A stretch of 24,250 nucleotides of DNA from a virus, in the IMG/VR virus record IMGVR_UViG_3300023281_000963, positions 1-24,250 of that record. One strand, written 5' to 3'. Both the position numbers and the translations under genes were made by a program. Positions 795 to 20,218 of the stretch are shown here, piece by piece. Under the pieces are notes generated by a model, which saw only the letters and a list, made by a program, of their open reading frames with translations, ran no database searches and was not told the DNA's origin. Every line of letters begins with the position of its first letter. Positions within the stretch are counted from its first letter, which is position 1.

Positions 795-807
795 TATATT
801 TCTATAT
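795..807 (+). promoter_or_regulatory. Candidate late promoter motif TATATTTCTATAT, site 1
   Basis: One of five exact TATATTTCTA copies in the window, with a sixth near-copy. This site and those at 3549 and 11105 share all 13 bases. It lies 50 bases upstream of the scaffold gene. TATATTTC differs from the host -7 box TAnnTTTG only in its last base, which suggests an altered -10-like element. Function is inferred from recurrence and position. Confidence 0.55.
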
Positions 808-857
808 GTCTAGCACTAAGCTAGATAAATATTAATCTTTAAAAAAACATTTTACAG

Positions 858-1478
858 ATGACAGTAAACGACGCAATTACGAAGTTAAGAGTTATGCTTG
901 GCGCTTCAACGGAAACTGTGGTTAAAATGGAAGAAGTAGAAGAAAAAGAAACTATCGAAGTGAAAGCTGCTGAAGCTACTCTAGTCGATGGTACTGAAGT
1001 GTACACTGAAGGTGAATTACAAGATGGAGCAATCCTTTTCGTAAGAGCTGGAGAAGGTGCATCTGAAGATCCTTTCGCTCCTGCTGGAATCCACGAAACT
1101 ACGGATGGACTTTTGATTACTGTAGGTGAAAATGGTGAAATCTCATCAATCGAAGATAAGTCTCCTGAAACAGAAGCTTCTGAAGAAAAAGAAGAAGTTG
1201 AAATGGAAGAAGAAGTTATCGAAGAGAAGAAAGAGATTAAGGAATTTGATGCTGACGCTTTATTAGAAGGTGTTGCTTCATTACTTAAGCCATACACTGA
1301 GGAAATCAAAGAACTTAAAGAAGAGCTATCAGTTCTTACTTCAAGATTTAATGATGTAGCTGATGAACCAGCTGCTAAAAAGGTTGCCAACACCTTTTCA
1401 AAAGAGGCACAAACAAGACAGACTACTTCTGAAGCTAGATTTGAAAGACTAGTTTCATTAAGAAAAAGTAGAAAGTAA
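858..1478 (+). CDS. Probable capsid scaffolding protein
   Basis: A 206-residue acidic protein directly upstream of the major capsid gene, the standard place for a scaffold. Residues about 38-98 form a small beta-rich domain (ATLVDGTEVYTEGEL, then a PAGIHETTDG turn and a GENGEISSI strand) of a type I recall from Bacteroidetes phage proteins in this position. Residues 100-135 are extremely Glu/Lys rich, and 140-165 give a predicted coiled coil (LKPYTEEIKELKEELSVL). The C-terminus is basic (RLVSLRKSRK), as expected for a tail that docks inside the capsid shell. The prohead protease encoded at 22017-23444 would be expected to degrade it during maturation. The scaffold role is inferred from position and composition; the beta domain alone does not prove it. 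Confidence 0.65.
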   Translation: MTVNDAITKLRVMLGASTETVVKMEEVEEKETIEVKAAEATLVDGTEVYTEGELQDGAILFVRAGEGASEDPFAPAGIHETTDGLLITVGENGEISSIEDKSPETEASEEKEEVEMEEEVIEEKKEIKEFDADALLEGVASLLKPYTEEIKELKEELSVLTSRFNDVADEPAAKKVANTFSKEAQTRQTTSEARFERLVSLRKSRK

Positions 1479-1514
1479 AACCAAACTAACAATTAAAAAC
1501 AAAAACAATTTATT

Positions 1515-2402
1515 ATGGCATTTGATTTAACAGCACTTAGTGTGTACACAGATGAAACATCAATGGATTTAATTGCAAAGGCAGTATTAGAAACTGACCT
1601 TATGTCTTATGTAGACTTAAGATCTGGACTTTCTGCTGGAACAGTAGCAATTAACCTAATGGACGGTGACTTAAACGTCGCTGACTTAGCTTGTGGATGG
1701 AATCCTTCAGGCGATGTAAACTTTTCTCAGGTAGATATTACTATCAGAGATAAACAAGTAAAAATGGACCTCTGCCCTGAGGATTTAAGACAATATTGGT
1801 TGTCTCAAAGAATGAGCGCAGCAGCAAACCAAGAGAGTGTTCCTTTCGAAGAAGTAATCGCTGATTACTACGTGAAGAGAATCTCTAAATACAACGAGTC
1901 TTACTTAGTAGACGGAGATGGTACTGGAACAGGTATCAAAGATCAAGTAACTGTCGGTAACGGCGCTACTTTATCTGCAGCTCCAGCAGCATGGACTTTA
2001 TCTAACGCAGTTGAGCAAGCTTTAAATATCTTTGATGCAGTAAATGAAGCATCTAAAGATAGAGATGATTTAATTATGATCGTTTCTCCAGCTAACTTCA
2101 ATACTTTAAGAAGAGCTTTAGTTGCACAAAACTATTACCACTATGATCAAGGCGACGGTCGTTCTTTCGAACTTCCAGGTGCTAATATCACAGTAGTAAA
2201 AACTTCAGGTCTTACAGGTTCTGATTACGTAGCAGCAGGTCCTTCAGGGATGATCGTTGCAGGAACAGGATTAGAAGATGATGCATCAACTGTACAATTC
2301 TTCTTTGACAAAGGTCAAGATGTTGTGAAATTCATCGCTAAGTGGAGACTTGGTGTTGCAGTATCACAAGTAGATCAATTCGGTACTAACGGATTAGCAT
2401 AA
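1515..2402 (+). CDS. Major capsid protein (HK97-like fold)
   Basis: A 295-residue protein of the length and character of HK97-fold major capsid proteins that lack a fused scaffold domain. It lies right after the scaffold gene, with a 36-base A-rich gap. Features fitting the fold are the amphipathic N-terminus with an E-loop-like segment, a long central helix (residues about 165-182, SNAVEQALNIFDAVNEAS), the P-domain-like stretch LIMIVSPANFNTLRRAL, and a C-terminal A-domain ending KFIAKWRLGVAVSQVDQFGTNGLA. The last segment closely resembles capsid C-termini of other Bacteroidetes phages as I know them. It forms the icosahedral shell. A stable hairpin without a T-run follows the stop codon, which may protect or attenuate this abundant message. 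Confidence 0.8.
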   Translation: MAFDLTALSVYTDETSMDLIAKAVLETDLMSYVDLRSGLSAGTVAINLMDGDLNVADLACGWNPSGDVNFSQVDITIRDKQVKMDLCPEDLRQYWLSQRMSAAANQESVPFEEVIADYYVKRISKYNESYLVDGDGTGTGIKDQVTVGNGATLSAAPAAWTLSNAVEQALNIFDAVNEASKDRDDLIMIVSPANFNTLRRALVAQNYYHYDQGDGRSFELPGANITVVKTSGLTGSDYVAAGPSGMIVAGTGLEDDASTVQFFFDKGQDVVKFIAKWRLGVAVSQVDQFGTNGLA

Positions 2403-2409
2403 TCATATA

Positions 2410-2433
2410 CCAGAGCTGCTCAGGTGGCTCTGG
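2410..2433 (+). terminator. Intercistronic hairpin after the major capsid gene, no T-tract
   Basis: CCAGAGC (2410-2416) pairs perfectly with GCTCTGG (2427-2433) across a 10-base loop. TTTAATTAAC follows instead of a T-run, so it is at best a weak terminator. It may lower downstream expression relative to capsid protein, or stabilise the capsid mRNA 3' end. Confidence 0.45.
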
Positions 2434-2464
2434 TTTAATTAACTAAAAAAACAAATATAAAACT

Positions 2465-2983
2465 ATGGCTTGTAGCAATTTAACAGCAGGATTTACTTTA
2501 GACTGTAACGACTCTAATGGTGGTATAGAATCAATCTTTATCGCTAATGGACCAGTTGAATCTATTACTGAATCCGCAGGACTTATCACAGCAATTACTG
2601 TTGGAGGTTCAGCGCTTACGCCTAGTGACTTTTTTGAATTTTCAGTTCCAAGACAAACTAGTTCAGCAACCGAAACAATCAACGTATCTCAAGAGAATGG
2701 TACAGTATTTTACGACCAAGCTCTTACAATGATATTCAACAAAATGGAAGCAGCTAAGAGAGATCAGATTTTACTGATGGCTCAAGCTACTAATATGGTA
2801 GTTGTATTCAAAGACAATAACAACAAGTATTTCTCTGTTGGTGTTGAAAGAGGTGCATTTATGACTGCAGGAAGTTCTTTAAGTGGAACGGCTTACGGTG
2901 ATCGTAACGGATACGAATTAACTATCTCTGGAATGGAAGAAAATCCAATGTTCGAAGTTACAGGTAGTATCGTGGAAGCATAA
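2465..2983 (+). CDS. Virion structural protein, possibly the major tail-tube protein
   Basis: A 172-residue protein starting MACSNLTAGFTLDCNDSNGGIESIFIA. The pattern C-x-GGI-xx-I-F-I-A, then an alternating hydrophobic strand pattern, a long central helix (TVFYDQALTMIFNKMEAAKRDQILL), and a C-terminal NGYELTISGMEENPMFEV segment is one I know from structural proteins of Bacteroidetes phages. A tail-tube role fits the mixed beta content and the GY-L-I-GxE-xP strand near the end, but a head-decoration role is also possible because it directly follows the major capsid gene. It is the last gene before a strong bidirectional terminator, so it shares the capsid transcript. The structural call is moderate; the tail-tube assignment is tentative. 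Confidence 0.5.
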   Translation: MACSNLTAGFTLDCNDSNGGIESIFIANGPVESITESAGLITAITVGGSALTPSDFFEFSVPRQTSSATETINVSQENGTVFYDQALTMIFNKMEAAKRDQILLMAQATNMVVVFKDNNNKYFSVGVERGAFMTAGSSLSGTAYGDRNGYELTISGMEENPMFEVTGSIVEA

Positions 2984-3004
2984 TAATCCACATTCAATCA
3001 ATAT

Positions 3005-3035
3005 AAAAGGGTAGCAGAAATGTTACCCTTTTTTT
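3005..3035 (+). terminator. Bidirectional intrinsic terminator with a GAAA tetraloop
   Basis: A 12-pair stem (3005-3016 with 3021-3032, one G-T wobble) is closed by the tetraloop GAAA (3017-3020). The T-run 3029-3035 ends the capsid operon on the plus strand. On the minus strand the same stem is followed by TTTTATAT, so it can also end the convergent gene at 3034-3513, whose stop codon lies inside the T-run. Confidence 0.85.
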
Positions 3036-3513
3036 ATATTAATCTTTTAGGTGAGTATGGTGCGTGTTTAGATTTAGTCATAGGCCATTTACGTTCACTA
3101 ACCCAATAACCTTCTTCGTTTAATTGACCGTACTTATAGACAACACCATCTATAGTAATTTCTGGTTTATAGTGCGCAAGTGTGTTAGTGCGCTCTTTAT
3201 CTTTTGCAAAGTCAAATAGTTCTCCTTCTAATAGGTATTTAATATCTACTTGTATACCTAAGTTAAAACCAATCATAATACATCCGTCGAGTAATCCAAA
3301 CACTCTGTGTTGAACTTTAGGACCTATGATAGTTAAATCTATATCATTAGCGGTAGAGTCTCCTAGAATGCTTCCATGTGTCCATAGCTGAAAGCCATCC
3401 CAATTGAATTTTTTAATCTCTTGTAGATAGATTTCAACAATAGGATCTTGCAATCCGTCGAGCTCACGCATTACTTTACATTCATATGCACCATATATTA
3501 CATGTTTTAGCAT
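3034..3513 (-). CDS. Nucleotidyltransferase-fold protein (pol beta superfamily)
   Basis: A 159-residue protein whose core fits the minimal nucleotidyltransferase fold: G47-S48 in WTHGSILGD, then the catalytic pair D57-x-D59 in NDIDLTI on the next strand, and a third acidic residue D90 in VDIKYL. This hG[GS]-x(9-13)-Dh[DE]h pattern defines enzymes that move a nucleotide onto a protein, RNA or small molecule. The substrate cannot be read from the sequence. It is the only minus-strand gene within the structural region, and lies between a bidirectional terminator and a shared divergent promoter region. That is the layout of a phage moron, an accessory gene with its own transcription signals. No HEPN partner or antitoxin-like gene is adjacent. 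A host takeover or anti-defence role is possible but unproven. Confidence 0.6.
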   Translation of the reverse strand: MLKHVIYGAYECKVMRELDGLQDPIVEIYLQEIKKFNWDGFQLWTHGSILGDSTANDIDLTIIGPKVQHRVFGLLDGCIMIGFNLGIQVDIKYLLEGELFDFAKDKERTNTLAHYKPEITIDGVVYKYGQLNEEGYWVSERKWPMTKSKHAPYSPKRLI

Positions 3514-3548
3514 ACTCTATTTATCTCCATTACAACTGATGATGTTTT

Positions 3549-3566
3549 TATATTTCTATATAGAAA
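3549..3566 (+). promoter_or_regulatory. Candidate late promoter site 2, overlapping a 14-base palindrome
   Basis: TATATTTCTATAT (3549-3561) repeats the 13-base motif of sites 1 and 4 and lies 20 bases upstream of the ATG at 3582. It overlaps the perfect palindrome TTTCTATATAGAAA (3553-3566). As this is the only intergenic space between the divergent genes 3034-3513 and 3582-3986, the symmetry may allow transcription both ways or provide an operator. Confidence 0.5.
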
Positions 3567-3581
3567 AACAACTTAACTAAT

Positions 3582-3986
3582 ATGACATCATACATTGGAC
3601 AAAGTATTGCCGGAGCGATAGAATTATATGTAAATTATGAGATCGATGCTGTCGGAGCTACAGGTTGGGTGACTTGGATTAGATCACTAAACACACAAGA
3701 ATGGTTAGGTCCATTCCCAACAATAGGTAACGTTACTAGTAATAAAAGATATTCTAGATGGTTTGCAGATACTAGTAGTATTCCGGACTTTGAAGATCAA
3801 CATAGAAACGGATTCTATCAAATGTGTACAACACCGCCATTTCCAGTAGATCAACCACTAGTTGGTATTCAAAATCAAGGTATGATAAAACTAATATTTG
3901 AACCTGGTGGACAAATTAACAAAGTAGAGTATGTCTCAAATAATGAACAAAGAGAGGCAGATACATACTTTAGACCAAATTATTAA
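3582..3986 (+). CDS. Conserved phage protein of unknown function, first gene of the portal unit
   Basis: A 134-residue protein, rich in aromatic residues and largely beta-like (GATGWVTWIRSLNTQEWLGPFPTIG, GMIKLIFEPGGQINKVEYV). No signal peptide, membrane segment or catalytic motif is visible. It starts 20 bases after late motif site 2 and ends 8 bases before the portal ATG, so it is co-transcribed with portal. A small virion or assembly role is likely by position only. Confidence 0.45.
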   Translation: MTSYIGQSIAGAIELYVNYEIDAVGATGWVTWIRSLNTQEWLGPFPTIGNVTSNKRYSRWFADTSSIPDFEDQHRNGFYQMCTTPPFPVDQPLVGIQNQGMIKLIFEPGGQINKVEYVSNNEQREADTYFRPNY

Positions 3987-3994
3987 GAAGTAAT

Positions 3995-5143
3995 ATGAGA
4001 AACACAAACCCAGAAGGATTATACAGTATTAGAGGTAGCAAGTTTGAAGCACTAGACTTACCAGTAATCCAAGAACAAAGAGGAAAAGACTATATCAAGT
4101 TCGGTAAAGACAACCTATTTCCACAAACATTAATCAGTTTATATGATAGTTCAGCAATGAACCACACTTGTATAGATGCTATTAGAGATGGTATCTTTGG
4201 TGAAGGTATTACTGACTATGGTAGTGAGTATATTAACACTGATGGTGAAACAATCGATAATATCTTTGAAAAGATTGCATTAGATTACACATTATTCGGT
4301 GGTTATTCACTTAACCTTATATGGAATAAAGAAGGTAATCGAATCGCAGAGATCTATCACTTACCATTTGCAAACGTAAGATCAGGTAAACCAGACGAAG
4401 AAGATAAGATACATTCTTATTACTACTCATCTGACTGGTCACAAATAAGAAAACACAAACCAGTTGAATATAAATGCTTTGATGTCACAGATACGAAAAA
4501 AGATTCTGCAAGTCAGATCTATTATTGTAAAAACTATAACCCAGGACAAGAAATCTATCCACTGCCTGCTTATATCGGTGGTGTTAATGATATTCAGCTT
4601 GATGCGAGAGTGTCAAGGTTCCACAATGCAAACATCTCAAATGGACTTGCTCCATCAATGTTCGTACAATTTAGAAACGGCATACCTAGCCCAGAAGAAA
4701 GAAGAGACATCTACAACGAAATAGAAGATACATTTAGTGGAGAAGAGAATGCAGGTAGATTCTTTTTAGCTTTCTCTGAACCAGGTAAAGAATTAGAAGT
4801 TACACCTATTGAGAATGCGAATGATGATTATTATATAACTCTAGAGCAAAGGATCACGTCTAGAATCCTAACTGCACACCGTATTACTTCACCTCTCCTT
4901 CTTGGAATTAAAGATGGTGCAGGATTTAGCTCAAACGCAGACGAAATCATCACTTCGTATTCTCATTTTATGAATACAGTAATTAGACCAAAGCAATCTA
5001 AAGTAATAGATACTTATGGTTACATACTTGGCTTAGCTGGATATAATGTAAGAATTGAAGTAGAGCCTGTACCAATGATTATTGGAACAGACGCAACAGA
5101 TCCAGCAATGGAAGAAGACATAACAAATATAGCAAACGAATAA
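3995..5143 (+). CDS. Portal protein
   Basis: A 382-residue protein, on the short side for portals but typical of Bacteroidetes phages. The recognisable core is the C-terminal half: RITSPLLLGIKDGAGFSSNADEI (roughly residues 298-320) followed by the long helix TSYSHFMNTVIRPKQSKVI, which matches the HK97/SPP1-type portal stem and crown pattern. The N-terminal half carries the wing-like segment YTLFGGYSLNLIWNKEGNRIAEIYHLP. The dodecameric portal sits at one capsid vertex, is the channel for DNA, and docks the terminase and the connector. The next gene, a connector, starts one base after the portal stop codon. Separation of portal from terminase by more than 6 kb is unusual. Confidence 0.85.
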   Translation: MRNTNPEGLYSIRGSKFEALDLPVIQEQRGKDYIKFGKDNLFPQTLISLYDSSAMNHTCIDAIRDGIFGEGITDYGSEYINTDGETIDNIFEKIALDYTLFGGYSLNLIWNKEGNRIAEIYHLPFANVRSGKPDEEDKIHSYYYSSDWSQIRKHKPVEYKCFDVTDTKKDSASQIYYCKNYNPGQEIYPLPAYIGGVNDIQLDARVSRFHNANISNGLAPSMFVQFRNGIPSPEERRDIYNEIEDTFSGEENAGRFFLAFSEPGKELEVTPIENANDDYYITLEQRITSRILTAHRITSPLLLGIKDGAGFSSNADEIITSYSHFMNTVIRPKQSKVIDTYGYILGLAGYNVRIEVEPVPMIIGTDATDPAMEEDITNIANE

Positions 5144-5144
5144 T

Positions 5145-5735
5145 ATGGCTCAAACAGCACTACTAGTCTCAGAACAACGACTTAAACAATGGACTCAATT
5201 AGACGATAATGTTCGTGTAAATGAGATTACACCTTTTATTTTACAAGCACAGGATATTTACTTACAAGATAGCTTAGGTACTAAATTCTATACAAGAATT
5301 AAGAATGGTATTATAGCTGATGATCTTACGGCAAATGAAAAACTATTACTTAATGACTACATAGCACCGACTCTGATGCAGTATGCTCTTTATCTAATGT
5401 TACCTAGTATAAAATATAAAGTAGCTAACCAGGGTATCTTAAATGGTACCTCAGAAGAGACTTCACCTACTACATTAGATGAATTAAAATATCTAAGACA
5501 ATCAACATTAGATACTGCAGAATTCTACAATAAAAGACTTATTGAATTCTTTCAGGATAATCCTTCAATGTTCCCTGATTACACAAGTCCTGGAACTGAT
5601 GGAATGATGCCAAACAAAAGAAATCCATACTTTAGTGGATTAGTAGTACCTAGAAACAATTTAACATATTATGAAGAACAATACGGCGAATGCTCGGACT
5701 GTGGGCCTTCCACAACAATCCAAGGCAACCCTTAA
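5145..5735 (+). CDS. Head-tail connector / adaptor protein (DUF6712-like)
   Basis: A 196-residue, mainly helical protein. The N-terminus LLVSEQRLKQWTQLDDNVRVNEITPFILQAQDIYLQDSLGTKFYTRI has the pattern of gp6-type head-tail adaptors: a strand and turn, then helices with an I-x-P-x-I-x-x-A-Q segment and LGtxxY. I associate this form with the Bacteroidetes phage family DUF6712. The C-terminus has a C-x-x-C pair (CSDC), followed by GPSTTIQGNP. It follows the portal by one base, as expected for the ring that docks under the portal. Family is recognised by pattern only, without alignment. Confidence 0.65.
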   Translation: MAQTALLVSEQRLKQWTQLDDNVRVNEITPFILQAQDIYLQDSLGTKFYTRIKNGIIADDLTANEKLLLNDYIAPTLMQYALYLMLPSIKYKVANQGILNGTSEETSPTTLDELKYLRQSTLDTAEFYNKRLIEFFQDNPSMFPDYTSPGTDGMMPNKRNPYFSGLVVPRNNLTYYEEQYGECSDCGPSTTIQGNP

Positions 5736-5770
5736 AAACATAGATAAATTACAAACATATTTCAGTAAAG

Positions 5771-5959
5771 ATGGGAAAAGTAGACAAACTTCTAAAAAGT
5801 TGGGTAAGTAAAAAACTATTTGTTTTCGTAATAGCGACAGCTCTTGCACTCTTTGGTGACTTAACTTCATCAGATTGGGTTATTATTGCAACTACATACA
5901 TTGGTACACAAGGAGCTATCGATGCAGTTAGTAGGCTAAAGGGAAACAACAACATATAA
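5771..5959 (+). CDS. Small membrane protein, possible holin
   Basis: A 62-residue protein with a basic N-terminus (MGKVDKLLKSWVSKK), a hydrophobic helix at about 17-34 (LFVFVIATALALFGDLTS), and a second hydrophobic stretch at about 40-55 (WVIIATTYIGTQGAID). Two short transmembrane segments and small size fit a holin or another virion-associated membrane peptide. It lies within structural genes and no endolysin is adjacent, which weakens the holin call. The late motif for the next gene starts right after its stop codon. Confidence 0.45.
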   Translation: MGKVDKLLKSWVSKKLFVFVIATALALFGDLTSSDWVIIATTYIGTQGAIDAVSRLKGNNNI

Positions 5960-5962
5960 AAT

Positions 5963-5976
5963 TATATTTCTTAGTA
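5963..5976 (+). promoter_or_regulatory. Candidate late promoter motif, site 3 (variant TATATTTCTTAGTA)
   Basis: Matches the 14-base form TATATTTCTAAGTA of sites 5 and 6 with one substitution, and ends one base before the ATG at 5978. The preceding bases (AACATATAAAAT) also resemble those sites. If it acts like a -7 box, transcription would begin at or next to the start codon. Confidence 0.5.
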
Positions 5977-5977
5977 T

Positions 5978-6649
5978 ATGGATATTAAATCAGTAACTAA
6001 AGACTATGTAGAATGTGCCTCAGGTGGTAACGTTACAGCACCAAACAACGGAAGTTGGATTAGTGCTTACGCTATCTATTTAGGTGCAACTACTATTGTC
6101 AATGGTTCATGGCTTCAAACACTATGTTACCAATTAGGTATAACAACACCAGTAAATAGCTCATGGGTTATAGCACTAGCAAATTCTTATAGTATTACAG
6201 CTCCTGTTAATGGCAGTTGGTGGTATGCAATTGCTGAATCAGCTTGTTCAGGTCCACCAGCAATTCCACCTACAGCGGAATTTATTGGTTCACCACTAAC
6301 ACTAAATGAAACAGCTAGTGTAACATATACTGATCAATCATCAGACAATGGAGGTCCTGCTATTACACAATGGGCTTGGACATTCGAAGGTGGTACTCCA
6401 GCTACTTCTAGTGCACAGAATCCAGTTATACAATATAATACTGCTGGAACTTACGATACTTCATTAACGGTCACTAATGCAGACGGTTCAGACGGAGAAA
6501 CAAAACCTGATTATATACAAGTAAACTTCGTACCAACACCAATAGTTATTAATTCATGGAGTGTCGGTGCATATAATAACACATTAATACAAGTACCAGC
6601 AAATCAAGATTTCGTTGCTGGAGCTTACGGACAAAAACTAGAACTATAA
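5978..6649 (+). CDS. PKD-domain virion protein with an exact 18-residue repeat
   Basis: A 223-residue protein in three parts. Residues 17-90 hold four repeats with Trp at 27, 45, 63 and 81, an exact period of 18, each built on P-V-N-G-S-W followed by a small helix-like A-x-A stretch. Residues about 98-182 form a PKD domain: PTAEFIGSP start, TQWAWTFEGGTP, then YNTAGTYDTSLTVTNADG, which contains the hallmark WxF and GxYxxxLxVTN. The last 40 residues are beta-like with no known family. PKD domains are Ig-like folds common on surface proteins and also on phage virions as adhesive decorations. Role is probably a tail appendage or capsid decoration that binds surface glycans. The domain call is strong, the virion role is inferred from neighbours. 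Confidence 0.65.
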   Translation: MDIKSVTKDYVECASGGNVTAPNNGSWISAYAIYLGATTIVNGSWLQTLCYQLGITTPVNSSWVIALANSYSITAPVNGSWWYAIAESACSGPPAIPPTAEFIGSPLTLNETASVTYTDQSSDNGGPAITQWAWTFEGGTPATSSAQNPVIQYNTAGTYDTSLTVTNADGSDGETKPDYIQVNFVPTPIVINSWSVGAYNNTLIQVPANQDFVAGAYGQKLEL

Positions 6650-6650
6650 A

Positions 6651-6875: not shown

Positions 6876-6876
6876 T

Positions 6877-8616: not shown

Positions 8617-8694
8617 ACAAAAGACAGATAAATAGTATAACTACAGAGGTTATTGCCATTTCCTCGAATAGTTATTTTTTATTTTATTTAGGCA

Positions 8695-8732: not shown

Positions 8733-8773
8733 GTAAACTTGACTTTTTTCTAAAATGTTTTAGATATATAAAC

Positions 8774-8794: not shown

Positions 8795-8813
8795 CTAAAT
8801 AAAAACTATAAAA

Positions 8814-9239: not shown

Positions 9240-9265
9240 CAACAAACTAAATAAAGATTCTAATA

Positions 9266-10237: not shown

Positions 10238-10467
10238 TGGAAAGAAGATTTAAAATAGGTAATCAAATATTTGCTAACTACATATACGAAAACAAAGACG
10301 TTAAGGAGTTATGTCAAGAAGTAGTATTTAAATGGTACCTAGATAAACATGAAGGTGACTATGCTGATCTGTTCTATGATATTAGAGAAGAGATTGACTT
10401 GTTAGAAAGTTTAGAACTATATGAACGTTGTAAACTATTAAAAGATATTATAGACAGATTTGAATAA
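10237..10467 (+). CDS. Small unknown protein upstream of the sigma-like gene
   Basis: A 76-residue, acidic and mainly helical protein (KDVKELCQEVVFKWYLDKHEGDYADLFYDIREEIDLLESLELYERCKLLKDIIDRFE). It starts at the TAATG overlap with the previous gene and overlaps the next by up to 8 bases. The C-terminal helix pattern, with LE-x-x-E-x-Y-E-x-C-x-x-L, resembles short regulatory or adaptor peptides. Tight coupling to the sigma-like gene invites the idea of a partner or antagonist, but nothing in the sequence proves this. Confidence 0.45.
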   Translation: MERRFKIGNQIFANYIYENKDVKELCQEVVFKWYLDKHEGDYADLFYDIREEIDLLESLELYERCKLLKDIIDRFE

Positions 10468-10981
10468 GTTTTTAACTGATAAGTACAATGATATTATTAA
10501 GATGTCGTATAGGATATGTAAGTCACCTGAATCAGAAGAGGTGGCTCACTACGCTATAGAACAGTTTATGACACATAAAAGAGGACAAGAGTTAGTAGAC
10601 AAAGGACAAGGCATGTTATTCCTATCAGGTATTATACATAGATCATTCCATAGTTCAACCTCACCTTACCATAAACTATATAGACAGAGTGGAAGGGTAC
10701 ATCAGTTACATGACAAGACCGCTGAGAAGCGCATAGATGAAGAGTATGATATAGAAATAGATTATACTATCGAAGCAATACAAGGTGTCTTAGAAGACAT
10801 GGAATCAGATACAGTAGAACAATGGTATAGAGCTAAACTATTTAAGATGTGGATAGATGAACCTAATTATTCAGAACTATCAAGAGTAACAGGTATACCA
10901 AGAACATCGATTAGTCAAGCAGTAAATGAATGTAAAGAATTTGTAAGAAAAAGAATAGAAGAATATGGAATTAATACTTAG
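10460..10981 (+). CDS. Sigma-70-like RNA polymerase sigma factor, candidate late-gene activator
   Basis: A 173-residue protein with the two-domain plan of small sigma factors. Residues 6-75 (DKYNDIIKMSYRICKSPESEEVAHYAIEQFM, then a segment with FLSGIIHRSFHS) resemble region 2, which binds core polymerase and the -10 element. Residues 128-168 (MWIDEPNYSELSRVTGIPRTSISQAVNECKEFVRKRI) form a region 4-like helix-turn-helix, with the turn at V-T-G-I-P and recognition helix RTSISQAVNEC. The longest frame starts with TTG at 10460, overlapping the previous stop; the first ATG (10502, residue 15) would trim region 2, so TTG is preferred though uncertain. It precedes the packaging genes, and could read the TATATTTCTA motif. 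Divergence from classical sigma factors keeps this at moderate confidence. Confidence 0.6.
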   Translation: MNKFLTDKYNDIIKMSYRICKSPESEEVAHYAIEQFMTHKRGQELVDKGQGMLFLSGIIHRSFHSSTSPYHKLYRQSGRVHQLHDKTAEKRIDEEYDIEIDYTIEAIQGVLEDMESDTVEQWYRAKLFKMWIDEPNYSELSRVTGIPRTSISQAVNECKEFVRKRIEEYGINT

Positions 10982-11189
10982 TATATTAGGAGCTGCAGGC
11001 CTAGGACATTTAGCTGCAGACTTCTTTAGTCAATTTAAATGGGCACCAGACAAACCTACAAAATGTAATATGTGTATGTCTTTCTGGTTAAATGTCGGAC
11101 CTTTTATATTTCTATATGGCTGGCATGGTGTGTTGTATGCCGCACTAGCATCAATAGTTAGTGAATTATATTTAAAAATATTACTATGA
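10965..11189 (+). CDS. Small membrane protein with a CxxC motif
   Basis: A 74-residue protein with hydrophobic segments at about 3-20 and 39-70 and a short hydrophilic loop between them that holds C34-N-M-C37 followed by SFWL. The C-x-x-C-x-SFW pattern followed by a membrane helix is one I recall in small Bacteroidetes phage proteins of unknown role. It overlaps the sigma-like gene by 17 bases and the next gene by 4 (ATGA). Late motif site 4 lies inside it. A holin role is possible but the paired Cys loop is not typical of one. Confidence 0.5.
   Translation: MELILSILGAAGLGHLAADFFSQFKWAPDKPTKCNMCMSFWLNVGPFIFLYGWHGVLYAALASIVSELYLKILL
11105..11117 (+). promoter_or_regulatory. Candidate late promoter motif TATATTTCTATAT, site 4 (inside a coding region)
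   Basis: All 13 bases match sites 1 and 2. It lies within the coding sequence of the membrane protein, 69 bases ahead of the gene at 11186 and a few hundred bases ahead of both terminase genes. It would let packaging genes be switched on late while the upstream genes of the operon are early. Chance occurrence in coding sequence cannot be excluded. Confidence 0.4.
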
Positions 11190-11844: not shown

Positions 11845-13071
11845 ATGAAGTATACTGGTTTTACACCACACCCTAAACAGAGAGACATGGTTACTGAAAT
11901 AATTAGCAGCGCAGCTAAGTACCATGTCGCTTGTGTTGGTCGTCAGTTTGGCAAGTCCTTAATGGCGATCAACCTCTCTCTGTATTGGATGATCAATGAT
12001 GGACCAGTTAAAGTGCTATGGATCAGTCCGACCTATTCACAAACATCAAAAGTACAAAAGGAAATGATGCAAGCAATCGGCGGAACCAACATAGTAAAAT
12101 CATGTAATTACTCATCAAACTATATTACCTTAAATAACGGTAGTGAGATAATATTTAGATCAGCCGAAAAGTACGATAACATTAGAGGTCTAACAGTAGA
12201 CTATGGTATTCTAGATGAAGCAGCCTTTATGAAAGAAGATGCATGGCGAGAAGCCATTAAACCAGTATTCTTAGTAAGAGGCAAGAAAGTCTTATTCATC
12301 TCAACACCCAAAGGTAAGAACTGGTTTCATCAATTATTTCAGTTAGCAAAGTCGCCGGACTACCCAACATATACTGCATATACAGGAAGTTCATATGATA
12401 CACCTTATATAGATGCAAAGGAAATAGAGGATGCTAAAAGAACCCTACCACCAAATGTATTCCAACAAGAGTATATGGCTAAGTTTATAGATTCAGGTGG
12501 TGAAGTATTCTCAGACTTAAAGAAAAACCTACAAGCCTACTATCCACAACCACAAGGTAAAGTCTATTGTGGTATTGACTTAGGTAAGCAAGAGGATTAC
12601 ACAGTAGCCACTTTCATGGACTCAATGGGTAATGTAGTAGATATTTATAGAGCCAATGCACAAGAGTGGACCACGATGACCAGAGAGATTATACAAAGAA
12701 TCAGAAAGTTTTCAGCTACCGCAATGGTAGAAGTCAATTCTATAGGTGATGTAATCTATGAACAGATCAAAAGAGAATGGCAAGACACACACCCTTTTAT
12801 TACAAGTAGTAAATCAAAGAATGAAATTATAGAAGGCCTAATACTTGACATGAATGAAACCAATATTAAGATCCCAGATGGTCAACTGTTTCCGTACCTT
12901 CTAAGCGAGCTTGAAGTATTTACATATGAATATAATCCTAAGACAAGAAACATCAGGTATGGTCACCCAAGTGGTCTCCACGATGACACGGTTATCTCAC
13001 TGGCGATAGTTAACTACAATCGGAAACAAAATAAGTCCTTAGGCTCATACGCTGTAATGGGTCGCAGGTAA
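11845..13071 (+). CDS. terL: Large terminase subunit (TerL), packaging ATPase and nuclease
   Basis: A 408-residue motor protein with all expected motifs. ATPase domain: Walker A G32-R-Q-F-G-K-S38, Walker B GILDEAAF with D124-E125, and the coupling motif S-T-P (153-155) in FISTPKGKNWF. Nuclease domain with RNase H fold: first acid D245 in CGIDLGKQEDYTVATF, second acid E296 in MVEVNSIGDV, third D380-D381 in LHDDTVISLAI. It pumps DNA into the prohead through the portal and cuts genome units. The start follows the TerS stop without a gap. Length is slightly shorter than the usual 420-550 residues, but no motif is missing. Confidence 0.92.
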   Translation: MKYTGFTPHPKQRDMVTEIISSAAKYHVACVGRQFGKSLMAINLSLYWMINDGPVKVLWISPTYSQTSKVQKEMMQAIGGTNIVKSCNYSSNYITLNNGSEIIFRSAEKYDNIRGLTVDYGILDEAAFMKEDAWREAIKPVFLVRGKKVLFISTPKGKNWFHQLFQLAKSPDYPTYTAYTGSSYDTPYIDAKEIEDAKRTLPPNVFQQEYMAKFIDSGGEVFSDLKKNLQAYYPQPQGKVYCGIDLGKQEDYTVATFMDSMGNVVDIYRANAQEWTTMTREIIQRIRKFSATAMVEVNSIGDVIYEQIKREWQDTHPFITSSKSKNEIIEGLILDMNETNIKIPDGQLFPYLLSELEVFTYEYNPKTRNIRYGHPSGLHDDTVISLAIVNYNRKQNKSLGSYAVMGRR

Positions 13072-13103
13072 TTCAATAACCATATAAATTATATTTCTAA
13101 GTA
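13071..13103 (+). promoter_or_regulatory. Late leader with motif TATATTTCTAAGTA, site 5
   Basis: The motif at 13090-13103 ends two bases before the ATG at 13106. With the preceding ATTCAATAAC (13071-13080) the whole 33-base leader matches 20186-20218 at 30 of 33 positions, and both begin at the stop codon of the upstream gene. Such close conservation ahead of two unrelated tail genes points to a shared promoter or translation signal. Confidence 0.6.
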
Positions 13104-13105
13104 AG

Positions 13106-13786
13106 ATGGCCACAATTAATATTAATAATAAGAGGTACGAGATACCAGAAAGATTAACAATAGACCAATACCATGGTGTATTACAGTTTGACTGGAATGA
13201 TCCCAAATACTATCCTTACATAGTGTCACAATTAACTGGCGCGCCATTAGACCTTTTAGTAAAGGCCGACGAAGAAGCCATGGTCCTAGCTATCTCAATG
13301 ATAGTTAAGTCTATGAATGATAGAAAAGAAGTAGAGATGTTAGAGTTAGACCAGATTATGTTTGGTCAATTTATAGATGCAGATGTATACTTAGCCTTAG
13401 GGTTAGAGAAACACTTTAAAGAACTGGCAACACTGCTAGCACCTAAAGCCAAATGGGCTGACGAAGCCATGTGGGCAGTAGACCGATTTGCAGCATTTCG
13501 CACATACACATACAGACAATATAAGGTGCTATTTGGCCTTACAGATAAAGATCTAGACGAAGAAGTAGAAGATACACCAGAAGTAAAACTAGATATAGCC
13601 AGAGCTTGGTATAAGGTAATAGTAGGCTTAGCACAAGATGATCTACTTAAAATAGATCAAGTAACTGACGAGCCTCTAATAAAGGCACTAAACTTTATGG
13701 CATTACAAAAAGAAAAGGTAATGGCAGAGAACGAACAAAAACTAAAACAAAGAAGACAATATGACTTATCGAGATCTCGTACTTAA
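13106..13786 (+). CDS. Tail-module protein, possibly a tail assembly chaperone
   Basis: A 226-residue protein, first gene of the tail unit behind late leader site 5. The start ININNKRYEIPERLTIDQYHGVLQFDW followed by long helices (VKADEEAMVLAISMIVKSMNDRKEVEML) and a highly charged Gln/Arg/Lys-rich C-terminus looks like tail assembly chaperones, which hold the tape measure during tail assembly. It lies 6 kb from the tape measure gene, and I see no slippery sequence for the frameshift that often marks this role, so the call is weak. The next gene starts inside its last 26 bases. Confidence 0.4.
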   Translation: MATININNKRYEIPERLTIDQYHGVLQFDWNDPKYYPYIVSQLTGAPLDLLVKADEEAMVLAISMIVKSMNDRKEVEMLELDQIMFGQFIDADVYLALGLEKHFKELATLLAPKAKWADEAMWAVDRFAAFRTYTYRQYKVLFGLTDKDLDEEVEDTPEVKLDIARAWYKVIVGLAQDDLLKIDQVTDEPLIKALNFMALQKEKVMAENEQKLKQRRQYDLSRSRT

Positions 13787-14333: not shown

Positions 14334-14791
14334 TGACAGTAGACGACTTCGAATCAGCACTAAGTGACTTTGGTGAAACTATGACTAACCTACAACCTAT
14401 ACTTACACAGATAGGTGGTAGACTAGTAGATGAGATTAGACAAGAGGCACCTACAAATACAGGAGCACTTAGACAATCTATCAAGGCCGTAATAGCAGAT
14501 GACTCACTGGCCATTGAAATGTTATACTATGGTATCTTTCAGAACTATGGAGTAGATGGTATGCAGAATGCACCAGCAAGAGAAGTACCAAGGTTCGGAG
14601 TACCTCAACCTACGGCAGGTAGTAGATTCGGATTCAGTGGTAACTTTGAGATGATAGGTGGTAGCCTACCTTACGGTGTACGAAAGTCGATATATAAGAT
14701 GGGTTTAAAACCACAACCATTCTTTGATGTCGATGCTATAGCCGCTGCCGTTGCTGATGGTGTAGCACAAAACTTAACAACAGAATTTTAA
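14333..14791 (+). CDS. HK97 gp10-like tail / head-tail joining protein
   Basis: A 152-residue protein. I place the start at the ATG that overlaps the previous stop (TAATG, 14331-14335); a longer frame from 14300 would add 11 residues of poor character inside the upstream gene. The segment GGRLVDEIRQEAPTNTGALRQSI (residues about 24-46) is the hallmark of HK97 gp10-like proteins, which contain A-P-x-x-T-G-x-L-x-x-S-I, followed by YGIFQNYGVDG and the late PQPFFDVDAIAAAV. It takes part in joining head to tail. Length agrees with the family. Confidence 0.75.
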   Translation: MTVDDFESALSDFGETMTNLQPILTQIGGRLVDEIRQEAPTNTGALRQSIKAVIADDSLAIEMLYYGIFQNYGVDGMQNAPAREVPRFGVPQPTAGSRFGFSGNFEMIGGSLPYGVRKSIYKMGLKPQPFFDVDAIAAAVADGVAQNLTTEF

Positions 14792-14793
14792 CT

Positions 14794-16233
14794 ATGGCAA
14801 TTACAGTATTACAAACCCCAACAACACCATTCGATATGGCCTATGGAGCTAATCCAATTACATTAGGTGGTATTGATACAATAGCTAGTGCAGATAAGTA
14901 TGCATTAAGAATTACTATCATTGGTCAAACAGATCCTATCACAGATATTAGACAGACACCTAACAAACAGGGTCGAGCTATCTTTGATGTACAAAATGCC
15001 TTACAAGCTTATGTAGGTCCAATGCAAAACAAGATAGACTCATTACATTATACAGGTGGCTTTGTTGCTCAGAACACTCGTATGACACTCGCTGGTGAAA
15101 CCTTATTAGAATATCAAATAAGTTATGCAGCTGAATCTGGTGGTGTCGTAGGAGCCTTTACAACAGTACCAACAATCTTTACAGTAATAGCAGGAAGTAA
15201 GCAATACTTTCAGATACCATTTGACACTAATCCTTATCAACCACTAATAGAAGACGATAATACATTCGCAGCTTGTAGTGACATAGATAGAACAGCTAAA
15301 CCTCTAAGTGATAATAACTTTACAATAGCAGATGAATTACCTGGTAAGACAGGCAATATCTACTCATCACCTGGTGGTATAGATGTACATAACGTATATA
15401 GAAACGATCAGTGTACTAAGACATTCTATCAATCAGTAGAGAGATCAGCTACTAATCCACCACCAACACCTGTACAAGGTATAGAAGCATTTTACGTCTT
15501 ACAGTTCTCTGCTACTTCTAGTACTCCTTTAGTGACTAACGTAGTTACTAACACACAATCAAATGGCGGTGGACCTAACATATCCCTAGGACAAGGTACT
15601 CTAATTAGTGGACAGTTTCAAACTATTACAATAGCTAGTGGTCCTGCTAACTTAATGGTACCGCTAAATCCTTTAACAACTTATTACTATATTTTACCTG
15701 TAGTCTATGGTTGTCCAGAAGATCCACAGTCACAAATCGATATGATGACAGCAGCGGCATGGAGAGCACAGAAGTATATTATTAATGAAGAGCCTTGTAA
15801 TGATTATCCACATGTACAGTTTGCATGGCAGAATAGCTATGGTTACAGAGACTACTTTACATTTACTAAAAGACTAGATCATTCAACTAAGACTAAGAAT
15901 AACAACTTCTTAAAAGGAGCCGCAGACTATAACTCAAGTAGTTACAATGTAGACTTACAAGATAGAGGCCTAACAACATTCTCACAGAAAATAGAGAATT
16001 CATTTAAAGTGGAATCAGGCTATATGAGAGATGCTGAAGCTGAACTACTTAAACACCTATATCAATCAGGTGAAGTTAAAGTCAGGTTCTCTGAAGGACC
16101 CTATGCAAACCAATGGGTACCTGTAGTAATTACAAACACATCATACAATGAGAAGACCTACAGAAAAGATAGGTTATTCCAATATACAGTAAGCTTTAAA
16201 CTGGCTTCAAACATAAAATCAATGAGAGGATAA
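14794..16233 (+). CDS. Large tail protein, conserved in Bacteroidetes phages, exact role unknown
   Basis: A 479-residue protein, rich in beta strands and Asn/Thr/Gln. The N-terminal 110 residues (TTPFDMAYGANPITLGGIDTIASADKYALRITI, then QGRAIFDVQNALQAYVG) form a Ig-like or tail-hub-like sheet, and the C-terminus has LLKHLYQSGEVKVRFSEGPYANQWVPVVITNTSYNEKTYRKDRLFQYTVSFKLA. Both ends resemble proteins I know just ahead of the large tail tip protein in Bacteroidetes phages. The position between gp10-like and the 1316-residue protein suggests a distal tail or baseplate hub component. I cannot assign a named family. Confidence 0.5.
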   Translation: MAITVLQTPTTPFDMAYGANPITLGGIDTIASADKYALRITIIGQTDPITDIRQTPNKQGRAIFDVQNALQAYVGPMQNKIDSLHYTGGFVAQNTRMTLAGETLLEYQISYAAESGGVVGAFTTVPTIFTVIAGSKQYFQIPFDTNPYQPLIEDDNTFAACSDIDRTAKPLSDNNFTIADELPGKTGNIYSSPGGIDVHNVYRNDQCTKTFYQSVERSATNPPPTPVQGIEAFYVLQFSATSSTPLVTNVVTNTQSNGGGPNISLGQGTLISGQFQTITIASGPANLMVPLNPLTTYYYILPVVYGCPEDPQSQIDMMTAAAWRAQKYIINEEPCNDYPHVQFAWQNSYGYRDYFTFTKRLDHSTKTKNNNFLKGAADYNSSSYNVDLQDRGLTTFSQKIENSFKVESGYMRDAEAELLKHLYQSGEVKVRFSEGPYANQWVPVVITNTSYNEKTYRKDRLFQYTVSFKLASNIKSMRG

Positions 16234-16234
16234 T

Positions 16235-19200
16235 ATGATTCAATTAAAAGTATATCCATTTGAAGGTGCCGCTGATACAGATGCAATCTTCTTAGACCTT
16301 TACGAAACACAACCTATTAAGTTAACACTTAGTATAGAAGATGTAACGTCAGCGGATGCTACATCAGTATTTAGTAGAACCTTTAAGGTACCTGCAACTA
16401 GAGATAACAATGAGTTTTTTCAGAATGCTTGGGAACTAGATGGTATAGACTTTGATATTACTATAAAGAAACCCGCACAGGTCTTAGTAGATGGTGCTGA
16501 GTTTAAAACAGGCCACGTAAGACTACAAAAGATATTTAGCAATGCAGACTTAGATAAGATTGACTATGAACTCTTATTCTTAGGAGAGACTAGAGACTTT
16601 AGTTCTGCTATTGGCGAGGCTAGCATGTGTCAATTAACATTTACAGATTTTAACTGGGATGATCTACCAGTTGCTTATACTAATGCTGCAGCCTTTGTAT
16701 CAGGTATAGGTGCAACAGAAGTTAAAGATAGTTGGGATGCTTTTCCATCTACAACTAGTGGTGGTAGCTTAACGGCAGGTTATGCAGATGGCGACCTCTT
16801 ATTTCCTCTTATAGATCATGGTAATGTATATGACTCTAATGGCGACTTAGGAACAGACTCACCTACAATTGCATTAGGTAGTAACGGTGCTCAACAACAA
16901 TCCTTTACACATTCTACTAGTGCTCTACCAGCTTCAAGGTTTAAACCTATGATTAGAGCTAAAAGAATATGGGATCAGATCTTTGAAGATAGCGGTTATA
17001 CATACGAGTCTAACTTCTTAGATAGTGAACAATTCAGACACATGTATTTAAGTGCCTTTGGTAATAGAGAATCTGTTGCTATAGGTGTAGAGCAAGATGT
17101 AGGTGGTGTATTTGGTGGTGGAGCTTCGGCAGAAACCTTTGAATACTTTGAGCCAGCTAATGGTAACAATGATGTACAGAGTTACTTATACCTTTCTAAT
17201 CAAGTAACAGCATCGCCTAGTTATACAGTAGGTTTTCCAGATGTTGGTGGTAGTCCTACTGGTAATGGTTCTTACTTTACAGCTCCTGGTAGTGCATCAG
17301 TTGGTGGTGCTTTCTATCAATTTAATTATGGCGCACAAGTAGATGCTCAAATAGAAAACTCTGATTATGGTTATACCGCTGTTAACTGTGCTGTACAACT
17401 TTGTATTGTCGATGCACCAGGTGGTAACATATTATATACATTAGATACAGGTAACTTTGCATCAAACGGTAACTGGTCAAGTTCTACTTATACTTCACAG
17501 AATGGAGGTTATCAACCACAAGCAGGAGACATCTTTCAAATCTTTGTAACTGCTGGATATTCTTACGATGTTAGTTCAGTAGATCAAGCCTATTGGCGAT
17601 GTGATGCTGCACCAGGTAATTACTCACCTGCAAGAGACTTAGACTGTGAGTACCAACAAATAGATTTTATTAAGGATGTTATTACTATGTTTAGATTAGT
17701 AATGCAACCATCAGTCAGTAGACCTAACCACTTCATTATAGAACCCTGGAAAGACTTCATAGGTTCAGGTGATGTATATGATTGGAGTGATAAGATGATA
17801 CGCGAGAAGGACTTTGTAAGTGAACCCTTATTTAATACACAGAGTGCTGTAATAGAATATACAAAACAAGAAGATGAAGACTATATTAATACCTTTCATC
17901 AAGATAATAATAAGCATGCTTATGGTTGGCTAAGGTTTGATTCACAGAATGAATTACTAAAAGGTAAGAGAGAAGTAGAAGTACTAGGTATTGCACCTAC
18001 ACCTATAGATCAAATAATAACTATGAGTGGTACTGCAAACGATAGCTTTATCTTACCACAAATATTTGAAGTAGATGATGATCAAAGATTACCTATAAAA
18101 CCTAAAAGTAGATTCTTATTCTATAATGGACTAGTAACTACTTATGGAACTACATGGTATTTTAAAACCTCATCTAGTTCGCAGATAGCAATGGTAACAT
18201 ATCCATTAGTAACACCGTATGAATATTGGCCAATTGAGAATGTTGCAGAGTCACCAGGACCACCACCAGTAGAAGCAGTTAATACACTTAATCTTAACTT
18301 TGCTAACGATACTAGATACTATATGGATCCAGCGCCTAACGCTGCTCTAACAGAAATACCTAATACTCTATTTGAAATCTTTTGGGCTCGTTATATTAGT
18401 TCACTCTATAATAAGTTTACTAAACGTGTAACGGCATACTTTACACTTAACAACGTAGACTTACAGAACCTAACATTTGATGATGTAATCTTTGTAGATG
18501 GTAAGTACTATAGACCTGAAAAGATTATAGATGCAGAGATAGGTCAAAGAACAGCGGTTAAAGTACAGATGATTACTCTTAAAGATCAACGACCAGTATG
18601 GCGACCTGATCCACTAACAGGCTTCTCTGTTATAGTCACAGATGGTATATGTGCTGGTGAAGAAGGTTCAATACAGGTAACTACAAACGGTACACCTCCA
18701 TTCAACTGGTCACTCTTTGGAAGTTCGAGTACAAACACTGGAACATATAATGCACCAGTAGGTCAAGCACCTTATATTTTTACAATAGATAACGTGCCAT
18801 TAGGTAACGGTCAATTAGAAGTAGATGATAGCTTTGGTAGAACGGCCTCTGTTGCATATACTATTGGTGCTTCAAGTTCATCACCAGTAGAAGCAACTCA
18901 TACAGTTGTAGATGCTACAGACTGTGCAGCACCATGTAATGGTTCTATAAATGTACAAGTAACAAGCGGTGCGCTACCTGCAACTATAACATGGCAAGAT
19001 GGTGGAACTGGATTTAATAGAACAGGTCTATGTCCTGATGATTACATGTACTTTATCACAGACGCCTTAGGATGTCAGAGTGATACGTATACCGCATCAG
19101 TTAGTTGTACACAGGTAACCTATACTTATCAGCTTAGAGAACACCTAAACAATTGTAGCCAATCTAGTTCAGCAACTTATATTGCTACATCAAATACTCT

Positions 19201-20185
19201 ATACACTAATGGTACAACAGTAGACTTAAACGAAAGAGCTGGATGTTATTACATACAGAATCAAACTACTCAAACACCTAATTATACAATAGGAACAGAT
19301 TATCCAGATTGTGCTAGTTGTTCATCAACAACACCAGTTAGTTATGAAGTAGAAACTTGTGGTACTGGCGCTAATACTTATTATATAAATAGAAACATAA
19401 CCTTAACACCTGGTCAAGCTGTAGAAATTAACGGAGCTGCTGGTTGTTTCGAAGTTGTTGGAGATTCTACTAATGCAGTTACTAACACCGTAGCTCAAGC
19501 ATTTGCGACATGTGCAGATTGTACTATAGTACCTCCAGGATTTGGATATTATGCCTTCTTCTGTGATGGTTCATTTAGCCCTAGATACTTTGCATCTACA
19601 ATCGCCTTACAAGCAGGAGATGTATTAGAAATTGCAAATGGCTTCTATATTGGTAAATGTGTTGAAATAATTAATCAAAATAATTCAGCTACAACACAAG
19701 GTGACTTAGATACAAGTGTAATCCATAATGATTGTAACGAGTGTCAAGGTATTACAGTACAAACATGTCATACAGTTTCTGTCTTTGGTGCTGGTGCTGA
19801 AATTTCATACGAACAAAACGGTTCAACATTTACAGAAACCTTAAACTCTGGTATCTATAATAGATGTGGTGATAACTTTATTCTAATTAGTGGTCAAGCT
19901 TCATTCGCTGACAAATACACTACTTGTCTTTCAAACGGTGATTGTTTTGTAAGATCAAGAACTAGCTGTCATACAGTATATGGTGGTAGCTCATTTAGTT
20001 CTACCTTTGAATATAGAGATTCTCAAAACGTATTACAAACAATAACTGTAAATGGATTTGTAACAGCATCTATATGTGCAATAGTTGGTACAGTTGTTAA
20101 AACAGCAGGTGCTGGTAGTTTTGTTGACAACCAATCAATCTGTATACAGAACGGAGATTGCTTTAGTGGTAACCCAACACCATAA
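16235..20185 (+). CDS. Giant tail protein with SprB-like and Cys-rich C-terminal modules, probable host-binding tip
   Basis: A 1316-residue protein, the largest in the window. Residues 1-790 begin VYPFEGAADTDAIFLDLYET with FSRTFKVPATRDNNEFF, a start I know from tail tip proteins of Bacteroidetes phages. Residues about 797-882 and 886-955 are Ig-like repeats; the second (DATDCAAPCNGSINVQV, then PATITWQDGG, then GLCPDDYMYFITDALGC) matches the SprB repeat pattern of flavobacterial gliding adhesins. Three Cys-rich modules follow (about 962-1029, 1034-1098, 1102-1170), each ending C-x-x-C, then two of a second type (about 1177-1240, 1245-1311), each with CHTV near the start and NGDC at the end. 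Likely a tail-tip protein contacting the host surface. The Cys richness suggests disulphides outside the cell. Confidence 0.6.
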   Translation: MIQLKVYPFEGAADTDAIFLDLYETQPIKLTLSIEDVTSADATSVFSRTFKVPATRDNNEFFQNAWELDGIDFDITIKKPAQVLVDGAEFKTGHVRLQKIFSNADLDKIDYELLFLGETRDFSSAIGEASMCQLTFTDFNWDDLPVAYTNAAAFVSGIGATEVKDSWDAFPSTTSGGSLTAGYADGDLLFPLIDHGNVYDSNGDLGTDSPTIALGSNGAQQQSFTHSTSALPASRFKPMIRAKRIWDQIFEDSGYTYESNFLDSEQFRHMYLSAFGNRESVAIGVEQDVGGVFGGGASAETFEYFEPANGNNDVQSYLYLSNQVTASPSYTVGFPDVGGSPTGNGSYFTAPGSASVGGAFYQFNYGAQVDAQIENSDYGYTAVNCAVQLCIVDAPGGNILYTLDTGNFASNGNWSSSTYTSQNGGYQPQAGDIFQIFVTAGYSYDVSSVDQAYWRCDAAPGNYSPARDLDCEYQQIDFIKDVITMFRLVMQPSVSRPNHFIIEPWKDFIGSGDVYDWSDKMIREKDFVSEPLFNTQSAVIEYTKQEDEDYINTFHQDNNKHAYGWLRFDSQNELLKGKREVEVLGIAPTPIDQIITMSGTANDSFILPQIFEVDDDQRLPIKPKSRFLFYNGLVTTYGTTWYFKTSSSSQIAMVTYPLVTPYEYWPIENVAESPGPPPVEAVNTLNLNFANDTRYYMDPAPNAALTEIPNTLFEIFWARYISSLYNKFTKRVTAYFTLNNVDLQNLTFDDVIFVDGKYYRPEKIIDAEIGQRTAVKVQMITLKDQRPVWRPDPLTGFSVIVTDGICAGEEGSIQVTTNGTPPFNWSLFGSSSTNTGTYNAPVGQAPYIFTIDNVPLGNGQLEVDDSFGRTASVAYTIGASSSSPVEATHTVVDATDCAAPCNGSINVQVTSGALPATITWQDGGTGFNRTGLCPDDYMYFITDALGCQSDTYTASVSCTQVTYTYQLREHLNNCSQSSSATYIATSNTLYTNGTTVDLNERAGCYYIQNQTTQTPNYTIGTDYPDCASCSSTTPVSYEVETCGTGANTYYINRNITLTPGQAVEINGAAGCFEVVGDSTNAVTNTVAQAFATCADCTIVPPGFGYYAFFCDGSFSPRYFASTIALQAGDVLEIANGFYIGKCVEIINQNNSATTQGDLDTSVIHNDCNECQGITVQTCHTVSVFGAGAEISYEQNGSTFTETLNSGIYNRCGDNFILISGQASFADKYTTCLSNGDCFVRSRTSCHTVYGGSSFSSTFEYRDSQNVLQTITVNGFVTASICAIVGTVVKTAGAGSFVDNQSICIQNGDCFSGNPTP

Positions 20186-20218
20186 ATTCAATAACACAAT
20201 AAATTATATTTCTAAGTA
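20186..20218 (+). promoter_or_regulatory. Late leader with motif TATATTTCTAAGTA, site 6
   Basis: The motif at 20205-20218 ends three bases before the tape measure ATG at 20222. The 33-base leader matches 13071-13103 at 30 of 33 positions and starts directly after the stop codon of the giant tail gene, as the other does after TerL. Confidence 0.6.

Follow-up and report, generated by a model that had tools for sequence, protein, structure and literature searches.

The window analysed here, 24,250 bases long, is the entire virus record. On its plus strand a short motif, TATATTTCTA or a close variant of it, recurs ahead of the scaffold/capsid unit, the unit holding the portal gene, gene 5978, the packaging genes, the unit after the large terminase (TerL) and the tape-measure unit. 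The features that bear on its interpretation are as follows.

771..802, plus strand: predicted late promoter of the scaffold/capsid unit, upstream box ACTTTTGTCA at 771-780 and core TATATTTC at 795-802
807..827, plus strand: hairpin where the scaffold/capsid mRNA is predicted to begin, TGTCTAGC-ACTAA-GCTAGATA
3531..3556, plus strand: predicted late promoter of the pre-portal/portal unit, TACAA at 3531-3535 and core TATATTTC at 3549-3556
5945..5970, plus strand: predicted late promoter of gene 5978, AACAA at 5945-5949 and core TATATTTC at 5963-5970
10460..10981, plus strand: sigma-70-like (ECF-like) gene, TTG start as listed, adjoining the packaging genes
11105..11112, plus strand: probable intragenic copy upstream of the packaging genes, within ORF 10965-11189
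11845..13071, plus strand: TerL (phrog_2, E 2.9e-47), a query for relatives and the source of the comparison tree
13072..13097, plus strand: predicted late promoter of the unit after TerL, TTCAA at 13072-13076 and core TATATTTC at 13090-13097
20187..20212, plus strand: predicted late promoter of the tape-measure unit, TTCAA at 20187-20191 and core TATATTTC at 20205-20212

The preliminary description had placed exact plus-strand copies of TATATTTCTA at 795, 3549, 11105, 13090 and 20205, and each is found at precisely that position; the further copy it gave at 5963 is likewise present on the plus strand and reads TATATTTCTTAGTA. The minus strand of the window contains no exact TATATTTCTA, and the reversed control pattern has no copy in the window. 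When up to one mismatch is allowed, the window has 17 matches against 8.0 expected, a number reached by one of 100 shuffles. Five of the six sites lie 12-70 nt upstream of a listed plus-strand gene, in zones that make up 6.8% of the window (P ~8e-6), and three of the six lie 15-17 nt upstream of an ATG, in zones that make up 0.35% (P ~8e-7).

The TATATTT motif is one half of a bipartite element. The other half, a CAA-centred box of the form [T/G]TCAA or [A/T]ACAA, starts 18 nt upstream; the preliminary description had thus recognized what we regard as the promoter core and had missed its fixed partner. At the scaffold promoter GTCA (GTCAA within ACTTTTGTCA) begins 18 nt ahead of the core, and ACAA takes the place of TCAA at the sites of gene 5978 and gene 3582.

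The distance between the core and the start codon differs from site to site. The core start precedes the ATG by 15 nt at gene 5978 (site 5963), by 16 nt at 13106 (site 13090) and by 17 nt at 20222 (site 20205). The core at 3549 lies about 30-33 nt ahead of the ATG at 3582, with a predicted leader of about 20 nt, and that at 795 is about 60 nt from its ATG, with the hairpin between them. The -7 box of Flavobacterium johnsoniae, TAHHTTTG, occupies positions -12 to -5, with transcription starting 4-5 nt beyond it (PMC6847099). By this host-box ruler, the mRNAs from 5963, 13090 and 20205 would begin 2-5 nt ahead of the AUG; the three cores end 1-3 nt before the ATG, and nearly leaderless mRNAs are therefore predicted. 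The prediction deserves attention, since few mRNAs of these hosts are leaderless, 5.5% in F. psychrophilum (PMC9723704).

The same ruler puts the predicted start of the capsid mRNA near 807, the point at which the hairpin begins. Across 39 unique leaders the mean best stem comes to 6.3 pair units, compared with 2.1 for mononucleotide-shuffled controls, and these leaders hold 30 different arm pairs; the arms thus covary, and what is kept is the structure rather than its sequence. The position of the hairpin would agree with the predicted start independently of the promoter argument, and the hairpin is possibly an mRNA stabilizer.

A different element is found ahead of minus-strand genes: a stretch some 65 bases long that contains TTGACATAAAAAAATATTT, present in three copies (75-139, 699-763 and 24130-24198) that are about 87% identical. 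These copies are probably early promoters or operators.

Recurrence of the element in related loci

Scans of viral contigs with the TerL, the major capsid protein (MCP) and the tape measure yielded about 200 related loci, some of which are overlapping fetches of one contig, such that independent genomes are fewer than loci. Throughout this set the element recurs at five syntenic places, namely ahead of the scaffold/capsid unit, the pre-portal gene, gene 5978, the post-TerL gene and the tape measure. Among unique relatives, 48 of 52 have it ahead of the scaffold homolog, all 11 with the relevant upstream region ahead of gene 3582, 36 of 39 ahead of gene 5978, 54 of 56 after TerL and 34 of 36 ahead of the tape measure. 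It does not occur ahead of genes lying within units, and it is absent ahead of the MCP (0/61), gene 22017 (0/28), the HNH gene (0/11) and gene 9794 (0/26). Three weak look-alikes occur among the portal upstreams of the relatives and one upstream of the initiator gene; the sigma-like gene has look-alikes in 16 of 47 upstreams, ten of which are TATATTTG/CATATTTG and resemble the host box. The lack of a site before the HNH gene, as first described, therefore holds both in the window and in the relatives, and the element clusters at syntenic unit starts instead of occurring at equal density in coding sequence genome-wide.

The strand distribution is also skewed. The first 80 loci have 50 coding-strand copies of TATATTTCTA and 7 on the opposite strand, where chance would give about 2 on each; for TATATTTCTAAGTA the counts in 80 related loci are 20 forward and none in reverse. 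On the coding strand there are 108 cases of TATATTT plus C or A at 12-20 nt upstream of an ORF start; on the opposite strand, which has few ORFs, there are none. An origin of the motif by chance in AT-rich DNA could appeal to the 36% GC and to one-mismatch matches that reach only about twice expectation; with the counts, the strand bias and the syntenic conservation all against it, this explanation is refuted by the relatives, and we accord it a negligible probability.

The partner box is conserved with the core. Of 48 scaffold sites, 41 have the pattern [TG]TCA/TTTC at offset 18, as do 44 of 54 post-TerL sites; the latter also give 15 matches at offset 19, with overlapping matches liable to be counted twice. 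The upstream box is at offset 18 in all 34 tape-measure sites. The spacer between the boxes varies in sequence while their spacing stays constant. Two conserved boxes at a fixed spacing ahead of transcription units are the configuration of a bipartite sigma-dependent promoter. A weight matrix trained on the relatives' post-TerL sites alone, with 40 shuffles as its null, gives 33.9 at 20205, 30.1 at 13090 and 19.6 at 5963, against a null maximum of 13.7. The strict-matrix scores at 3549 (7.6), 795 (5.2) and 11105 (-0.4) are at or below the shuffle maximum, and these three putative promoters rest on conservation and not on matrix score. One additional stretch, TACATGTTTTAG at 3499, scores 15.7, just over the shuffle maximum of 13.7; it overlaps the start of the minus-strand gene 3034-3513. 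A candidate extra site, CATATTTC at 5756 ahead of gene 5771, was rejected, as its variation in relatives looks coding.

Individual assignments made from the window needed some adjustment. The site at 3549 does precede the portal unit, but the first gene of that unit is 3582 and the portal is the second, and the label "PKD protein" was not confirmed for gene 5978, which has no PHROG match. The copy at 11105 lies ahead of the packaging genes, inside ORF 10965-11189, and the next ATG is 81 nt further on. Among 30 homologs of this ORF, codons 45-50 have the lowest synonymous variation (0.16 versus a mean of 0.38), with the exception of codon 48, which alternates between TTT and TTC, giving TATATT[T/C]CTA. 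A coding coincidence was set aside, and the copy is kept as a probable intragenic promoter, because synonymous variation is lowest exactly at the site; it is less certain than the other sites. It is missing in most genomes with the class A core (see below), some of which have a copy just ahead of the next gene. The same ORF has a second stretch of low synonymous variation at 11163-11180, TTATATTTAAAA, immediately ahead of the packaging genes, which may be the packaging promoter in place of 11105 or a further promoter.

Two further explanations accept the conservation and deny that it reflects a promoter. The element might be a Kozak-like, AT-rich translation-initiation signal of strong genes: three window sites end 1-3 nt ahead of the ATG, and Bacteroidota use an A-rich upstream context in place of the Shine-Dalgarno sequence (PMC6847099). 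Such a signal would not be expected about 30-33 nt (3549) or about 60 nt with an intervening hairpin (795) before the ATG, where core and upstream box are found as well; it leaves the partner box 18 nt away unaccounted for, and the MCP, the portal and 22017 are structural genes that lack the element. We regard this as very unlikely. Less probable still is the conservation of the sites as recombination joints between gene modules, although they do lie at module borders and the stretches 13070-13110 and 20185-20226 are 91% identical: joints would not account for a spacing that is fixed while the spacer varies, for the coupling of the scaffold site to a hairpin, or for the single core class shared by all scored sites of a genome, described below. 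The repeated motif is real and very probably the core of a phage late promoter, and we consider it highly probable that the element is a late promoter with two boxes. The repeated TATATTTC would then very probably be an on-switch for virion genes in a large uncultured marine phage group. Its hosts are probably flavobacteria. Three contigs of about 24 kb (L208, L209 and L210) in the Flavobacteriaceae metagenome-assembled genome (MAG) FRAM18_bin221 show the gene order of this phage and are probably phage genomes binned with their host.

A sigma-like protein as candidate reader

A late promoter served by a sigma factor other than the host's main one, as first proposed, is by far the best fit. The same proposal derived the motif from the host -7 box and invoked an altered sigma factor. 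The altered specificity stands, but its source is probably the phage gene 10460-10981, which had been overlooked, and not an altered host sigma. The likeness to TAHHTTTG is only partial because the last base, C, is class-specific: the eighth base is C, A or that of the TATATCTT form according to class, and the sites read TATATTTC in the window and TATATTTC/TATATTTA in relatives instead of matching the host box.

The family of the 10460 protein has 41 members, of which 29 show a match to phrog_1740, annotated as "RNA polymerase sigma factor", with 9.7e-7 as the best E-value. None is shown to pass the Pfam sigma cut-offs, the best values being E 0.0056 for Sigma70_r4 and E 0.04 for Sigma70_r2, and weak antitermination-Q-like and MarR-like matches also occur. 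The AlphaFold model (pLDDT 84.4, pTM 0.43) shows an all-helical fold and a flexible linker. Its top Foldseek matches in the PDB are mostly ECF sigma factors, the best being Mycobacterium tuberculosis sigma L (probability 0.99, E 0.077), and the C-terminal domain alone gives a target TM of 0.60-0.76 to the region 4 structures 2h27 and 3hug. A PDB sequence search with the sigma alignment returned nothing usable. Judged by profile matches and by its model, the protein resembles ECF sigma factors, though below curated thresholds; it is ECF-like, not a proven member. Its gene starts with TTG in the window and in many relatives, and ATT or CTA stands at the aligned place in some, which suggests that the gene start or its translation may be unusual. 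A sigma-like gene also occurs on a 3.4-kb contig in an Aliivibrio MAG (L211), probably a mis-binned phage fragment.

The relation between this gene and the promoters emerges from their joint variation. The cores of the relatives fall into TATATTTC (class C), TATATTTAATA (class A; TATATTTA(ATA)) and TATATCTT, the last in two loci, L065 and L067, with three sites in L067; L051 is counted as class A, a more distant class C site there being left aside. Among the 70 loci with at least two sites of classes C or A, 58 are all-C, 12 all-A and none mixed. The gene 3582 promoter has a class A core in L013 and L207. The class of the post-TerL site changes 2 times on the tree of the 10460 gene (bootstrap 2-2) against 6 on the TerL tree (5-6), and the bootstrap ranges of the two trees do not overlap. 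With matched rows the changes number 2 on the 10460 tree versus 5 for TerL and 3 for the gene directly downstream, the margin over the downstream gene's tree being one change; a second matched set gives 1 versus 2 for TerL and 4 for gene 9794, and fully supported branches underlie only one TerL-tree contrast. Four loci (L004, L006, L008 and L013) have TerLs 80-82% identical to that of the window, sigma-like proteins only 41-44% identical to its own, and class A promoters.

The predicted recognition helix follows the same division. It contains SQA in all 23 class C loci and lacks it in 22 of 23 class A loci. The one class A locus with SQA is L016, whose scaffold and post-TerL promoters are TATATTTAATA while its sigma falls in the TATATTTC clade. 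That protein has the TATATTTAATA-clade residues 72 (T) and 77 (K), a point noticed after the fact which L059 and L003 fit only in part. The stretch around these residues may be region 2.4, and L016 may represent a recent specificity switch. Residues 69-77 were rejected as the specificity determinant, not being consistent with every locus. Taken from the sequences, the promoters and the sigma-like protein appear to have evolved together. Whether they form a paired series with at least three cores (TATATTTC, TATATTTAATA, TATATCTT and perhaps CGTTAATA in the phage P12024S, discussed below), in which the promoters of a genome switched jointly with its sigma, is a suggestion that we hold tentatively, at a little under even odds.

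These data also bear on the alternative in which the element is a promoter started by the host sigma, and specificity comes from the 10460 protein as an activator or anti-terminator, or from some other phage or host factor. Such an arrangement would accommodate a sigma assignment that falls under curated cut-offs, the weak antitermination-Q-like and MarR-like matches, and a core resembling the host box TAHHTTTG (PMC6847099). An activator would, however, leave the core to the host sigma, whereas here the core itself shifts between classes with the 10460 gene; the C, A and TATATCTT variants deviate from the host box, and the Foldseek matches are mostly to ECF sigma factors. We consider this alternative unlikely, and put the probability that the late promoters are read by the 10460 protein at roughly 0.8. 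We infer transcription from the element, its late timing, its start sites and the identity of its reader. The ECF-like 10460 sigma would bind the host RNA polymerase and direct it to the two-box sites, and the units switched on would be those of the scaffold/capsid, portal, gene 5978, packaging, post-terminase and tape measure.

Known systems and significance

A TerL search for a close cultured phage found none, identity being about 30%. The Nonlabens phage P12024S (Inhavirus, JQ823122; L212) has a distantly related portal (29%) and MCP. Its gp33 contains a Sigma-70 region 2 above the Pfam cut-off (E 1.4e-5) and is encoded four genes upstream of TerL. Six genes of its structural region have CGTTAATA, or in one case CGTTACTA, exactly 12 nt ahead of their ATG:

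JQ823122, positions 167, 3019, 5400, 23949, 25189 and 26790: copies of CGTTAATA/CGTTACTA, apparently late promoters

These sites appear to be so far unreported late promoters in a cultured phage. P12024S thus shares with the window phage a sigma gene upstream of TerL and a repeated core ahead of start codons, but the core sequence differs. A direct profile comparison of gp33 with the 10460 sigma family gave no significant match. The AAAACAAA found upstream overlaps in part with a divergent host-type box, so that the second half of the promoter is less certain.

Three characterized systems offer further comparison. T4 gp55 is a small phage protein of the sigma family that directs late transcription from AT-rich core elements, and T4 late promoters consist of a -10 element alone and need the sliding clamp. 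The window phage would resemble T4 in its small sigma-like protein and AT-rich core and differs from it in having an upstream box. Flavobacterium sigma-A (sigma-ABfr) promoters are like the TATATTT core in geometry (PMC6847099, PMC9723704), but their eighth base is G in place of C or A, and their upstream box is also different. The phages phiEco32 and 7-11 have a phage ECF sigma factor with its own promoters (PMC4331800; also PMC7881722), and the window phage would parallel them in encoding an ECF-like sigma that serves a few conserved phage-specific promoters, while early genes would use the host sigma. Those phages are enterobacterial and have larger genomes (about 90 kb in 7-11), their promoter sequence, so far as it is known, is different, and the geometry of the window sites predicts near-leaderless mRNAs. 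A tblastn search with the 10460 protein against 50,697 phage records, at E up to 1, gave no match and hence no sequence kinship to the phiEco32-type sigma family.

The arrangement is thus of a known kind, a phage sigma with its promoters as in phiEco32 and 7-11 (PMC4331800); what is new is the lineage, the sequence, the near-leaderless geometry and the visible co-evolution. In the literature searched, no account came to light of how phages of marine Flavobacteriia control their late genes. The analysis yields a predicted sigma, its promoters and natural specificity variants that are open to direct test, and the element could serve to mark late units when genomes of this widespread uncultured phage group are annotated. 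Escherichia coli promoters fail in Bacteroidota, and the predicted sigma and its promoters are a candidate expression tool for these bacteria.
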